Below, in pieces: positions 17,545-31,961 of a stretch of DNA of 32,938 nucleotides. The DNA comes from Candidatus Margulisiibacteriota bacterium (GTDB lineage Bacteria; Margulisbacteria; Marinamargulisbacteria; UBA817), in contig JADHOE010000015.1 in NCBI GenBank assembly GCA_016779165.1, positions 1 to 32,938 of the forward strand. The letters run 5' to 3'. The position numbers were made by a program, and so were the translations under genes. The notes beneath the pieces are model-generated. The model ran no database searches. It was not told the DNA's origin and saw only the letters and a list, made by a program, of their open reading frames with translations. Position 1 is the stretch's first letter; each line of letters starts with the position of its first letter.

Positions 17545-17835
17545 ATGCTTCTAAACATTATTCCCATTCTTATTTTTTTACCTTTCATTACCATTTTTTA
17601 TAAGAAACGACTACAAACCATTACCAACCCCACCCTTGCGTCACTGGGTGCCATCGCCCTATCATTGCTTTCTTTAAACCCGATTGGACTTTTCATTGGC
17701 ACAGTTGGCATGATTGCATTGCCAAAACTCAAAAACCGTGGGGAATCTTTTTCATCATCAATTTGCGCAAAATGTGGTACCTTATCTAATAAGGGGGAAT
17801 CCACATGCCGTCAGTGCGACAATATTTTACATTAG
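17545..17835 (+). CDS. Small membrane protein with C-terminal zinc ribbon
   Basis: A 96-residue protein I cannot assign to a family. It shows two hydrophobic segments (about 4-18 and 31-59) and a C-terminal four-cysteine ribbon, C74-x2-C77 and C88-x2-C91 (CAKCGTLSNKGESTCRQC). The ribbon should lie on the opposite side of a short linker from the membrane part, probably in the cytoplasm. It starts 3 bases after the RsbW-like gene and overlaps the PilB-like gene by 31 bases, so all three are almost certainly one operon. Confidence 0.7.
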   Translation: MLLNIIPILIFLPFITIFYKKRLQTITNPTLASLGAIALSLLSLNPIGLFIGTVGMIALPKLKNRGESFSSSICAKCGTLSNKGESTCRQCDNILH

Positions 17836-19085
17836 CCGATATTAAAACCCAGGGAGAATTTTCAGCAACAACATACCACAACGATCTGCATGACCATGTT
17901 CACTGTTTAGCCAATAGCCTTGGCGTTGCCTTATACAATAACCCCATTGCACCCCAAGCAACATTTACATATGGGCCAAATGCCATAGTGAATGCACTCA
18001 TGAATCAATTTTTTCTGATCACATTACCTGGGCAACAGTTGGTGATCACCTGCAACCCCCATCATTCAGCCATTCAACACGCGCATAGCTCTGACTCAAT
18101 TTGTTTAACAACACCTGAGCATTTTTTGCACTTGTTGGCCAACCAAAACCACAACAATCCAATTGAAGGGCTGTGGCACCTGTGCCATTTTTTAGCGGAT
18201 CATTTACACAGTAGTGACATTCATATTTGCCAACGAAACGGCCTTCAGTTTAATCAAAATGGTCATTTTCAATTTTTACTCCCCTTACCTGAAGCAGTGC
18301 TACAAAAGCTCATTTACGTTATTAAACTTAAGGGATTAATGGACCCATCATCCACAAAAAAACCACAAGATGGCGCGTATCGGTTTATCTTTAATGCCCT
18401 TCAGTTGGATGGTCGAATTGCAAGCCTTCCAACACGCCAAGGCGAGCTAATTAGCCTGCGCTTATTTCACCAAAACCAACAGTTAAATACACTTGAAGAC
18501 CTCGGGTTTTCGTTGAATAAAATTACCCATATTCGACAACTTCTAACGCATAAAAATGGCCTTATTTTGGTTACCGGCTCAACAGGTGCTGGCAAAACAA
18601 CAACGCTTTATTCGATGCTGAATGAACTGGAGGGGCGTCATATCATTACCCTTGAAGACCCCATTGAAAAAATCATTCCCCATGCCAACCAAACGGCCAT
18701 TAATCAAATGCAAGGGTATGCCTTGGATACCGCCCTAAAAGCCATTTTAAGGCACAACCCGGATGTCATTGCAATTGGTGAAATAAGAGATGAAAAAACC
18801 GCCAATGCGGTAATTAATGCCGCATATTCTGGGCATTTAATTTTAGCATCCCTTCATACCAATAGCATTGAAACGACATTGCTTCGATTATTAAACTTGG
18901 GAGTTAGCCCGTTTTTAATGAGTTATTGTTTGCGAGGCATTATTGCTCAATCACTGACACAATTCAACAACAAGCAACAGTTAACTAGTGACGTATTTAT
19001 TTGCAAGACCCCGCCAACGATTATTAATAATATTAACGAGGATTTACCAACATTTTTAGAAAAAAATATTCGAATAACTGAATAA
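17805..19085 (+). CDS. PilB/GspE-type secretion or pilus ATPase
   Basis: A hexameric motor ATPase of the type II secretion/type IV pilus family, 426 residues. The N-terminal part (1-130) is unassigned. SSDIHI (136-141) begins the N2 domain, Walker A is GSTGAGKT (258-265), the Asp box is ITLEDPIEKI (281-290), Walker B is DVIAIGEIRDE (320-330) and the His box is SGHLILASLHT (342-352). The four-cysteine zinc module usual near the C-terminus of GspE/PilB is absent, and the protein ends soon after GIIAQSL. The start is firm despite the 31-base overlap with the previous gene: AAGGGGG lies 7 bases before the ATG. No platform or pilin genes are nearby, so pilus versus secretion cannot be decided. Confidence 0.88.
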   Translation: MPSVRQYFTLADIKTQGEFSATTYHNDLHDHVHCLANSLGVALYNNPIAPQATFTYGPNAIVNALMNQFFLITLPGQQLVITCNPHHSAIQHAHSSDSICLTTPEHFLHLLANQNHNNPIEGLWHLCHFLADHLHSSDIHICQRNGLQFNQNGHFQFLLPLPEAVLQKLIYVIKLKGLMDPSSTKKPQDGAYRFIFNALQLDGRIASLPTRQGELISLRLFHQNQQLNTLEDLGFSLNKITHIRQLLTHKNGLILVTGSTGAGKTTTLYSMLNELEGRHIITLEDPIEKIIPHANQTAINQMQGYALDTALKAILRHNPDVIAIGEIRDEKTANAVINAAYSGHLILASLHTNSIETTLLRLLNLGVSPFLMSYCLRGIIAQSLTQFNNKQQLTSDVFICKTPPTIINNINEDLPTFLEKNIRITE

Positions 19086-19788: not shown

Positions 19789-19908
19789 ATGCGAAAAATA
19801 GTACCCAATACACCAGGTATATGGTTACTGAATGGCATTAAACAAATGCCCAATCGTGGTAAAGGACCGTTGTTCAAGCCAGTAAAAATGAGTATGATTG
19901 ATGTATGA
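19789..19908 (+). CDS. Possible 39-residue small protein overlapping the lysS start
   Basis: A frame beginning at ATG 19789 encodes a short basic peptide (MRKIVPNTPG ... KMSMIDV) and stops at 19906-19908, giving a four-base ATGA overlap with the lysS ATG at 19905. A weak AAGG precedes the start by 2 bases. The overlap is what one expects of translational coupling, but the lysS promoter predicted at 19870-19898 lies inside the frame and would explain the region without it. No family is recognised. Confidence 0.25.
   Translation: MRKIVPNTPGIWLLNGIKQMPNRGKGPLFKPVKMSMIDV
19870..19898 (+). promoter_or_regulatory. Predicted promoter of lysS, leaderless geometry
   Basis: TTGTTC (19870-19875) and TATGAT (19893-19898) are 17 bases apart. 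TATGAT ends 6 bases before the lysS ATG at 19905, the same spacing as at tyrS and queE, and there is no Shine-Dalgarno sequence. Confidence 0.5.
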
Positions 19909-21383
19909 TGGAACAAACACAAACCACAGAATCAGAATTTGATGTCCGAAAAAAAAAGCTGGCTGACTATCAACAGTCCGGCACCAACCCATTTGCCTAT
20001 TCATTTCATCGGTCCCATGCCATTGCGGAAACATTGGACTTGGGCGCCGCTTGCCAGGCGGGTGAAAAAACAACGCATACGGTACGAATCAGTGGCCGAA
20101 TCAAGGCCAAACGCGGCCATGGCAAAGCCATTTTCGCCAATATTACGGATCAATCTGGAAGCATTCAACTGTACGCTTCGGTCAACACACTATCATCGTT
20201 TGATGCCTTTAGCTTGCTTGATGTGGGCGACATTGTTGGCGTTGAAGGACTGTTGTTTTCCACTCGCCGTGGTGAACTGAGTGTGGATGTTCAATCGTTT
20301 GAATTGCTAACCAAATCATTGCACCCACTGCCTGAAAAATACCATGGCTTGCAAGATAAAGAAGCCCGATACCGCAGGCGCTATGTGGACTTAATTGCCA
20401 ACCCTGATGTAATGGCGGTGTTCAAAACCCGATCAGACATTGTTCGCAATATTCGCAACCTGTTGGCCAAGCAAGGGTTTATGGAAGTTGAAACCCCCGT
20501 ATTGCAGCACATTTATGGAGGGGCATCGGCGCGCCCATTCATTACGCACCATAACGAACTGAAACAAGACCTATATTTGCGCATTGCATTGGAACTGCAC
20601 TTAAAGCGATTGATTGTTGGTGGTTTCGAGAAAATTTTTGAAATTGGGCGCGTGTTCCGCAACGAAGGGGTATCGTTCAAACATAACCCTGAATATACCC
20701 TGCTTGAACTGTACCAAGCCTATGCGGATTACTCCGATATGATGACCTTAACAGAAACCTTAATGCACGATTTGGTGGTGCAGGCATGGGGGTCTGAAAC
20801 CATTGACTACCAAGGTCAATCGCTGAATTTCTCAACCCCATTTAAGCGTGTCTCCATGCGAGACGCCATTTTGGAGCATGCCGGAATTGATATCCATACC
20901 GCTGAAACATCGGACATGTTAACTGCCCTTCAGGGCAAGGGAAAAGAATTCTCTAGCCATTCACCCAAAGGCGAACTGATTAACGAATTATACGATACCT
21001 TTGTGGAACACCATTTAATTCAGCCCACCTTCATTGTGGACTACCCCATCGAAACATCCCCACTGGCCAAGAAAAATCGTAATAACCCGGCCTACGTGGA
21101 GCGGTTTGAATTGATTGTTAATAAAATGGAGATTGCGAATGCCTTTTCCGAATTAAACGACCCCATCGACCAGGCCGAGCGGTTTGAGGCCCAGCAATTG
21201 GCCAAAGCGGCTGGCTTTGACGAGGCACACGAAACAGACGACGACTTTATTGAAGCCTTATCTTATGGCATGCCACCAACAGGCGGTTTGGGAATTGGTA
21301 TTGACCGGGTGGTGATGTTGCTTACCAACTCAGCATCAATCCGCGATGTGATTTTGTTTCCGCACTTAAAGCAGACGCATTAG
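19905..21383 (+). CDS. lysS: Lysyl-tRNA synthetase, class II
   Basis: Charges tRNA-Lys. The 492 residues contain an N-terminal OB-fold anticodon-binding domain (VRISGRIKAKRGHGKAIFAN, about 60-79) and the class II catalytic core. Motif 2 is RVFRNEGVSFKHNPEYT and motif 3 is GGLGIGIDRVVML near the C-terminus. Length is normal for bacterial LysRS. Two ATG codons stand in tandem at 19905 and 19908; the first fits the leaderless spacing. The tRNA-Arg gene lies downstream on the same strand. Confidence 0.96.
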   Translation: MMEQTQTTESEFDVRKKKLADYQQSGTNPFAYSFHRSHAIAETLDLGAACQAGEKTTHTVRISGRIKAKRGHGKAIFANITDQSGSIQLYASVNTLSSFDAFSLLDVGDIVGVEGLLFSTRRGELSVDVQSFELLTKSLHPLPEKYHGLQDKEARYRRRYVDLIANPDVMAVFKTRSDIVRNIRNLLAKQGFMEVETPVLQHIYGGASARPFITHHNELKQDLYLRIALELHLKRLIVGGFEKIFEIGRVFRNEGVSFKHNPEYTLLELYQAYADYSDMMTLTETLMHDLVVQAWGSETIDYQGQSLNFSTPFKRVSMRDAILEHAGIDIHTAETSDMLTALQGKGKEFSSHSPKGELINELYDTFVEHHLIQPTFIVDYPIETSPLAKKNRNNPAYVERFELIVNKMEIANAFSELNDPIDQAERFEAQQLAKAAGFDEAHETDDDFIEALSYGMPPTGGLGIGIDRVVMLLTNSASIRDVILFPHLKQTH

Positions 21384-21409
21384 GAATCAAGTGACTTAAG
21401 GGGGATGTG

Positions 21410-21457
21410 TCTTTCGTTATTAATTGTTCGTTCAATTGATATAATCACCCTGTTGCG
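21410..21457 (+). repeat. Upstream copy of the tRNA-Arg promoter (48-bp direct repeat, copy 1)
   Basis: This 48-base stretch matches 21581-21628 at 43 of 48 positions and includes a TATAAT at 21440-21445 followed by the same CACCCTGTTGCG. In copy 2 the last GCG is the first three bases of the tRNA; here it runs into unrelated sequence. It is therefore a second potential promoter, with a start site near 21452, firing into the hairpin that follows. Confidence 0.75.
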
Positions 21458-21463
21458 TTATCA

Positions 21464-21581
21464 AAACACCGTCAAAATGGCTCAAGCTGCGTTTCATTCT
21501 CAAAAAAATTTCCTCGATTACAGCCGTAAACTCCGGGATTTTTCTTCCGAAGGCCTTGCTTGCTCCATTTTCAAGGTGTTT
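21464..21581 (+). ncRNA. Candidate structured RNA: long imperfect hairpin between two promoter copies
   Basis: Arms 21464-21487 and 21558-21581 are complementary at 20 of 24 positions. The 70-base interior contains further partial pairing and an apical TTAC-AGCC-GTAA stem at 21518-21529, centred almost exactly on the same axis. A TATAAT-type promoter lies just upstream (21440-21445). It could be a transcribed small RNA, a processed tRNA leader or a remnant of a small mobile hairpin element. No RNA family is recognised. Confidence 0.4.
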
Positions 21582-21625
21582 CTTTCGTTTTCAATTGTTT
21601 GTTCAGTTGGTATAATCACCCTGTT

Positions 21626-21628
<3 letters not shown>
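21581..21628 (+). promoter_or_regulatory. tRNA-Arg promoter (48-bp direct repeat, copy 2)
   Basis: TATAAT at 21611-21616 ends 9 bases before the first base of the mature tRNA. The -35 region is weak (TTTTC/TTCGTT-like). The repeat includes the first three tRNA bases. Confidence 0.65.
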
Positions 21629-21702
<74 letters not shown>

Positions 21703-21719
21703 TTACATTTTGAACCTAG

Positions 21720-21746
21720 AACCACCCTTTTGAGAGTGGTTTTTTA
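21720..21746 (+). terminator. Rho-independent terminator after tRNA-Arg
   Basis: A stem AACCAC (21720-21725) with GTGGTT (21736-21741) around a 10-base loop is followed by a run of T. It lies 17 bases after the tRNA. Confidence 0.75.
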
Positions 21747-21806
21747 GTATCTGGGAGGAAGGAAAATCTCCAAAATATCTCCAAATTGTGAGATACCTAG
21801 AGTTAT

Positions 21807-31058: not shown

Positions 31059-31961
31059 GTGAATTTCCCACATTTTATTAAACATCAGTATGTACTAATC
31101 CCACTCTTGCTATGGGTGCTATTGCATGTGATTGGTTGTTCCAAACCCGATTCAGGCATTGGGGCGCTACCCGATAGTGAACAAAATGCCCTAAGCATTA
31201 TTAATGGTGTAAAAGGATACCACACCAGCATTGATGGCATTTCTATGACCGGGGGTAGCAGCGACTGTTTTGAATATCACTATGAAAATCAATTTAGCAC
31301 CAATACAACATCACCCATAACTTGCAACCAATCCATATGGTTTAACGCCTTTGACAACAGTTCAATGGACTATTTTATAGCCAATAAAATTGCAAAAAGC
31401 AATAATTTGGACAGCAATAAACGCATGGTTTTTTATGAAAGCAGTTCAAAAGTTAGCGTATTTGTGGATGCAAATTTTTACTTGCCAGATTATTACAATG
31501 ACGCCAACATTGCCACCAATGGCAGTGCTTTTTACAAATATGAATCTCAAACTGGCAATCAATTTTACATGGTCTTGTACACATGGGATGATACATTTCC
31601 CGCCATTAAAGTTAACGTTGATTCGTTAAATGAGCCCCAAATCACACACGTCGTTTCTTACATTGAGGTGGGGTCAAAATCTGAACCTTGCACATTAAAC
31701 GACTCAACATTAAATACCCCATGCACCATAACCATCCATAGTGTGAATGATTCGTTATCCACCATTACCCAATATCAAAGCGATTTGCCCCCCATTAATG
31801 ACCCATTGATTGGCAGCATTTCGAATAAAGTAGTTGAAGTAAAGATTTACGATAAAGACAATCATCATGTGGGGCACCTTACCATTGATGGTCCAAATGG
31901 GTTTGTATTCACTGTAACAGATCTAACTGGGCACCCATTCCAAAAAACAACATCGCAATAA
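31059..31961 (+). CDS. Predicted lipoprotein of unknown function
   Basis: A 300-residue protein with a type II signal peptide: a hydrophobic stretch (about 11-25) and lipobox V-I-G-C27. The mature part begins SKPDSGIGALPDSEQNALSI and is Ser/Asn/Tyr-rich, with several paired cysteines (for example SSDCFEYHY and SPITCNQS, then EPCTLND and TPCTITIHS) that may form disulfides. No family is recognised. The start codon is GTG at 31059, with AAGGAG 11 bases upstream. Confidence 0.7.
   Translation: MNFPHFIKHQYVLIPLLLWVLLHVIGCSKPDSGIGALPDSEQNALSIINGVKGYHTSIDGISMTGGSSDCFEYHYENQFSTNTTSPITCNQSIWFNAFDNSSMDYFIANKIAKSNNLDSNKRMVFYESSSKVSVFVDANFYLPDYYNDANIATNGSAFYKYESQTGNQFYMVLYTWDDTFPAIKVNVDSLNEPQITHVVSYIEVGSKSEPCTLNDSTLNTPCTITIHSVNDSLSTITQYQSDLPPINDPLIGSISNKVVEVKIYDKDNHHVGHLTIDGPNGFVFTVTDLTGHPFQKTTSQ

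Follow-up and report, generated by a model that had tools for sequence, protein, structure and literature searches.

We found that a 118-base hairpin at positions 21464-21581 (minus strand) of the window, that is, the whole 32,938-nucleotide stretch analysed here (Candidatus Margulisiibacteriota bacterium, GenBank assembly GCA_016779165.1, contig JADHOE010000015.1), is very probably an old non-autonomous mobile element (MITE) of the ERIC type, which was inserted 5' of a tRNA-Arg gene. ERIC elements have been known since 1990-91. In the available parts of reviews and a survey, ERIC (also called IRU or RU-1) is described as an imperfect palindrome, 127 bp long, found in enterobacteria and Vibrio, with Enterobacteriaceae and Vibrionaceae as its hosts (PMC2229807, PMC2267715, PMC10969869). 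Excerpts of the same literature list its termini as TA and report that ERIC copies alter mRNA stability (PMC2229807), and that in Yersinia the effect on transcript stability depends on the orientation of the element (PMC2229807, PMC10969869).

The hairpin lies between lysS (19905-21383, plus strand), encoding lysine--tRNA ligase (NCBIfam lysS_bact, 634.6 bits; cutoff 427.6), and a tRNA-Arg(TCT) gene (21626-21702, plus strand; Rfam tRNA match at gathering score). Compared by lysS, the window was closest to the named records UBP8_UBA817 and Marinamargulisbacteria, and it is placed in the genus of UBP8_UBA817. Upstream of lysS, the region 17805-19085 resembled a GspE/PilB-type secretion or pilus ATPase, with a score far under every equivalog cutoff. 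Two direct repeat copies on the plus strand (21410-21457 and 21581-21628) surround the hairpin and could be realigned at 43 of 48 bases, exactly the count given in the first-pass annotation of this DNA; the terminal 18 bases of both copies are the same sequence (TATAATCACCCTGTTGCG). Since the tRNA starts at 21626, the proximal copy overlaps it by three bases, and the upstream copy likewise ends with the first three tRNA bases. The same annotation had regarded the repeat as a duplicated tRNA promoter. This holds for the two similar copies, but only the proximal one, immediately 5' of tRNA-Arg, passed a sigma-70 consensus scan (TTTTCA-17-TATAAT, 10/12); the upstream copy, with TTATTA at the -35 position, fell below it. 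The upstream copy stops 6 bases 5' of the hairpin, and 3' of it no tRNA sequence beyond the first three bases remains. When a promoter plus tRNA query was used to search 17 genomes, the promoter stretch was matched twice in the window's own genome only. No terminator-like site was found across 21350-21800, on which basis a terminator was rejected.

The hairpin forms a single stem-loop of 118 bp, comparable in length and shape to the ~127-bp imperfect palindrome of ERIC. In its outer 25-base arms, 20 of the 25 positions were paired, and the 118-base hairpin that had initially been placed between the repeats was confirmed. The minus strand, which corresponds to the family consensus orientation, folded at -36 kcal/mol, whereas its shuffled versions averaged -25.1 (z -3.24; 1 of 200 shuffles equal or better), and folding of 21452-21625 on the plus strand, one of the checks proposed in the first-pass annotation, gave a z of -1.96 (9 of 200 shuffles). 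Three parts could be delimited on the minus strand, all with approximate bounds: a conserved motif GCAAGGCCTTC on the element's 5' strand of the outer internal loop (21550-21560), its 3' counterpart GAATGAAACGCAGC (21487-21500), both defined by conserved alignment columns, and an apical stem with a conserved internal loop, CCGGAG-TTTAC...GTAAT-CGAGG (21509-21537), for which the family consensus is CCGGAG-stem-TGAGGA. The arms end in AAACACC/GGTGTTT and lack a flanking TA on both sides, unlike the TA termini listed for ERIC, and no direct repeat flanks this copy. A search of the window against Rfam at gathering score returned the tRNA only; membership of the hairpin in a known Rfam family was rejected, as none was found on it at E up to 5.

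Other genomic copies and covariation in the stem, which the first-pass annotation had also suggested looking for, were both observed. A first DNA search of 56 genomes revealed clear additional copies in a genome of the same order (G004). A covariance model (R1) was built from seven aligned copies, in which 25 of 40 stem pairs had compensatory changes, and yielded 45 hits in 10 of the 74 genomes of the window's phylum, including nine in G004 and two in the window's own genome (G000); the window hairpin, a member of the training set, scored 107.8 bits. The other full copy in this genome was located at 1992-2111 of locus L263 (G000:C6:102000-106000), downstream of a frame (946-1860) that resembles an AbiEii-type nucleotidyltransferase. 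All 45 phylum hits were folded: most gave a single long stem interrupted by two internal loops, and a few were decayed or cut at contig ends. Alignment of 29 of them (A4; the 16 omitted were near-identical, cut or weak copies, plus L106) showed compensatory changes in 36 of 39 stem pairs, and 89.5% of cells were paired versus 35 to 46% (maximum 46.4%) when partners were slid by 1 to 3 columns; it should be noted that the family alignments were fitted by covariance model and are hence biased towards the model structure. The outer arm and the middle stem were variable in the family, and CAAGGC, CCGGAG, TGAGGA and AACGC were fixed, in the layout AAGGC ... GGAG-stem-TGAG ... AACGC. The inner loop was closed by a G-U pair in 26 of 29 copies (A4) and in 24 of 25 copies of a second set, an unusual fixed wobble. 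Because the internal loops are fixed whereas the stems change freely, the folded core is probably recognised by something, either as RNA or as single-stranded DNA.

The fixed parts follow one another in an order reminiscent of ERIC, which led to a direct comparison. Of 5426 E. coli genomes, 5373 contained the 44-base ERIC core. A second covariance model (R2) was derived from A4 alone, with no E. coli sequence, and applied without filters to 56,088 bases of E. coli, comprising a blindly chosen 50-kb K-12 stretch and two loci with the core. Three real ERIC copies were the top three of 22 matches: K-12 639511-639632 between ahpC and ahpF (38.4 bits), ybhJ-ybhI (31.8 bits) and pgk-fbaA (30.7 bits). 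The next match, the best non-ERIC one, was a short palindrome with 14.3 bits. The reverse strands of the three ERIC copies were absent among the 22 matches; thus, palindromy alone does not account for the scores. A strand contrast could also be seen for the second own-genome copy (105.0 bits versus 23.7 bits for its reverse strand). A further stretch of the own genome, G000:C12:22704-22737, matched weakly and in part (best R2 score there 15.4 bits) and looks like a decayed family copy. In the reverse test, a model (R3) was built from 24 Pseudomonadota matches and one ERIC, with no copy from the window's phylum; its alignment (A5) included 23 of 25 fetched Pseudomonadota loci and one ERIC locus, omitting L229 and L248, which have a shorter body, and comprised 25 matches because locus L235 contains two. 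R3 assigned 64.4 bits to the window hairpin (E 5e-13; the E-values of R2 and R3 are approximate only) and 55.7 bits to the K-12 copy, and its highest score in 90,059 bases for anything other than a family member was 17.5 bits, within a coding frame of the window. A weak match to the models (14.3 and 17.5 bits) at 31612-31714 of the window, which lies in a coding frame, is probably due to chance.

Both model directions and the motifs therefore place the conserved ERIC core in the window hairpin, in the correct order and on the correct strand. The family and ERIC share a single hairpin of ~120 bp, mostly intergenic, dispersed and mobile, with the core order AAGGC - GGAG - YTTAC..GTAAR - TGA - AACGC. 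On the other hand, several differences could be observed. The arms of the window hairpin pair yet have little sequence in common with ERIC in the covariance alignments, and the outer arms and middle stem of the family are unrelated in sequence to those of ERIC. The internal loop is GGA/GA in the family and nearer to GA/GA in ERIC, whose ends are TA, whereas the family has 5-bp repeats (none at the window copy). The host belongs to Margulisbacteria, a phylum distant from the ERIC hosts Enterobacteriaceae and Vibrionaceae. As ends and flank lengths vary by group, the case for common descent with ERIC depends on the core and the fold; the likeness might instead reflect convergence on a recognised core.

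We also analyzed the occurrence of R2 matches beyond the window's phylum. Only the best first-pass candidates were scored, so all counts are lower bounds, and the names of the phyla are inferred. At E up to 0.001, at least 76 of the 249 genomes in the phylum to which 'Proteobacteria bacterium 005FR1' belongs (most likely Pseudomonadota) had matches, as did at least 5 of 112 in that of 'Deltaproteobacteria bacterium UBA6930'; at E up to 0.0001, so did at least 3 of 146 genomes from the phylum that includes a Synechococcus and at least 1 of 149 from that of an Actinomycetota MAG. Matches in the rare phyla could be due to MAG contamination. Of 30 genomes in a mixed set, again with the best candidates scored, only two had matches, both relatives of the window. 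All four motifs were complete in 21 of 45 Margulisbacteria copies, 19 of 25 from Pseudomonadota, 1 of 5 from the delta phylum, 0 of 7 from the cyanobacterial and actinobacterial phyla and 3 of 3 ERIC copies. On the opposite strand, they were complete in none of the 85 fetched matches. Many copies carry motif variants, for example CGAGGC and GCAG in the delta, cyanobacterial and actinobacterial copies.

Several observations point to mobility. A 5-bp direct repeat was found at the ends of 11 of 42 copies (42 of the 45 hits were used), compared with a mean of 2.4 and a maximum of 7 in 1000 trials with shuffled flanks. Near-identical copies occupy unrelated sites in genomes G024, G164 and G200; the G164 copies, from another phylum, have TA at both ends, and 4-bp repeats could be recognised by eye at several G200 copies. 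As in MITEs in general, the members are short, multi-copy, bounded by terminal inverted repeats and without a coding gene, and target-site duplication is seen at the level of the family and is absent at the window copy. High-copy, near-identical ERIC-like hairpins in G164 and G200 (L186, L191, L195 and L198-L217) are often located at contig ends, so that the assemblies seem to be broken by them. No transposase could be seen, with frames inspected by eye, between paired ends GGGRCTGTYKCAAAATG (8 genomes searched, 15 stretches) or between paired ends GGGCGTGTTGACATTCGCC (2 genomes searched, 6 stretches). Ends matching the hairpin ends also occur at other repeats and at contig ends. In G283 (L265, L266 and L270), contig-end repeats share a 15-base end (GGGCGTGTTGACATT) with the hairpins, with a CTA flank in two of the three, and these repeats may be insertion sequences that move the hairpins. 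A search of G000, G002 and G003 for an empty orthologous site of the G001 copy gave no usable site.

With regard to genomic context, a simple rule based on neighbouring frames was applied to 36 copies and placed 13 between converging frames, 3 between diverging frames and 6 inside a frame, which suggests that family copies are tolerated at gene ends. A tRNA or tmRNA gene was present within ~100 bp of 5 of ~45 copies, including the window copy; by informal judgement, this is not clearly above what a preference for intergenic sites would produce. In G003 (L142, G003:C35), a genome of the same order, the hairpin (1501-1620) is located ~90 bases upstream of tRNA-Arg(TCT) (1334-1410), both on the minus strand. 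Its orientation relative to the tRNA is opposite to that of the window copy, and the two therefore look like separate insertions. The tRNA-Arg locus of the same-genus genome G001 (L116) had no clear R2 match (best 12.3 bits). Elsewhere, a family member in G004:C3 (L175, 1501-1628) adjoins the 3' end of a tmRNA gene, and another (L158) adjoins tRNA-Arg(ACG).

These data bear on other explanations of the locus. A small-RNA gene had been named as a possibility in the first-pass annotation, and a structured RNA peculiar to this locus, either a small RNA or a 5' leader, whose transcription starts at the upstream promoter copy and which acts on tRNA-Arg or in trans, would fit both the promoter-like copy stopping just before the hairpin and the G003 member likewise preceding tRNA-Arg(TCT). 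However, family members are dispersed beside unrelated genes, the upstream copy is the weaker match and failed the promoter scan, the G003 hairpin is turned the other way relative to its tRNA, and the G001 locus lacks a clear match. Because the copies are dispersed, a small-RNA gene was rejected as the main reading, and we consider it very unlikely. Even less credible is a plain transcription terminator or unrelated palindrome that resembles ERIC through palindromy: the hairpin does lie close 3' of lysS, and converging frames surround 13 of the 36 classed copies, but no terminator-like site was present, the best non-ERIC match in 56 kb of E. coli, a short palindrome, reached 14.3 bits, and reverse strands scored far lower than forward ones.

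The origin of the promoter duplication has to be considered separately. It had been suggested earlier that a hairpin element was inserted and duplicated its flank. The insertion is supported by dispersed copies, compensatory change and short flanking repeats elsewhere, but a 48-base flank duplication made by the insertion is not, since other copies show ~5-bp repeats and the window copy none. Another early suggestion, a lost tandem tRNA-Arg whose promoter was left behind, could apply to the promoter duplication alone, with the hairpin having replaced or split the lost gene. The first three tRNA bases are retained in both repeat copies and the element begins 7 bases past the end of the upstream one, which speaks for this scenario; however, no further tRNA sequence follows the upstream copy and, among the 17 genomes searched, the promoter stretch is doubled in the own genome only. 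We regard such a loss as somewhat doubtful. The promoter duplication is best treated as separate from the insertion of the element, which it may have preceded or followed.

If the hairpin is a mobile element of the ERIC type, the mobile unit would be a hairpin of ~118-125 bp whose two ends are inverted repeats of each other, and a resident transposase acting in trans on the paired ends would move it. Insertion would leave short direct repeats, ~5 bp in this bacterial group (a statistical signal at the family level and not at the window copy). The outer and middle stems would be free to change as long as pairing is kept, with the AAGGC/AACGC and GGA/GA loops fixed and a G-U pair closing GGA/GA. 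In the window, the element would have entered between lysS and tRNA-Arg(TCT), where one copy of the tRNA promoter now stands on either side; the tRNA is likely driven by the adjacent copy, and the weaker upstream copy is likely what remains of a small duplication. Transcription of the region, if it occurs, would place the hairpin in RNA, where it might make its transcript more or less stable.

REP and REPIN elements are moved by Y1 transposases. The window family resembles them in being small, palindromic, non-autonomous and high-copy (PMC3116915, PMC3733652), but REPs are given as 20-40 bp (PMC3733652), unlike the 118-bp element with two conserved internal loops found here. With other MITEs (Correia/NEMIS, RUP and QMITE of Coxiella), it shares inverted-repeat ends, hairpin transcripts and a transposase acting in trans, according to PMC2229807 and PMC10969869; in contrast to these bacterial MITEs, it conserves the interior while the ends vary. 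We found no paper on ERIC-like elements outside Gammaproteobacteria in the literature searched, which left subscription journals and preprints uncovered and is weak evidence of absence. The term 'ERIC-like sequence' appears in PMC4617851, PMC4624149 and PMC9402949, which deal with fingerprinting or diversity. For Margulisbacteria, too, the literature searched yielded no report of such repeats.

More broadly, ERIC might be a local offshoot of an ancient class of mobile hairpins across several bacterial phyla, in which a structured core is kept (AAGGC/AACGC and a GGA/GA internal loop with a nearly invariant closing G-U pair), in which this core rather than the ends is inherited and recognised, the opposite of an ordinary MITE, and in which the outer arms and the length of the target-site duplication (5 bp, TA or about 4 bp) are suited to different transposases. 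We consider the chances of this view to be about even; its basis, which is not proof, is that ends and repeat length vary by group while the core is common.

The core concerned is also where ERIC primers are located. If the class does extend to Margulisbacteria, to Pseudomonadota in general and to a few further phyla, this would bear on the amplification by ERIC primers of DNA from bacteria thought to be without ERIC. With covariance models of the kind of R2 or R3, the entire class can be searched for. In our reading of the available parts of the literature, work on enterobacterial copies alone has left open what binds or moves ERIC, and the fixed core of such a widespread class would be a clue to its binder or mover.
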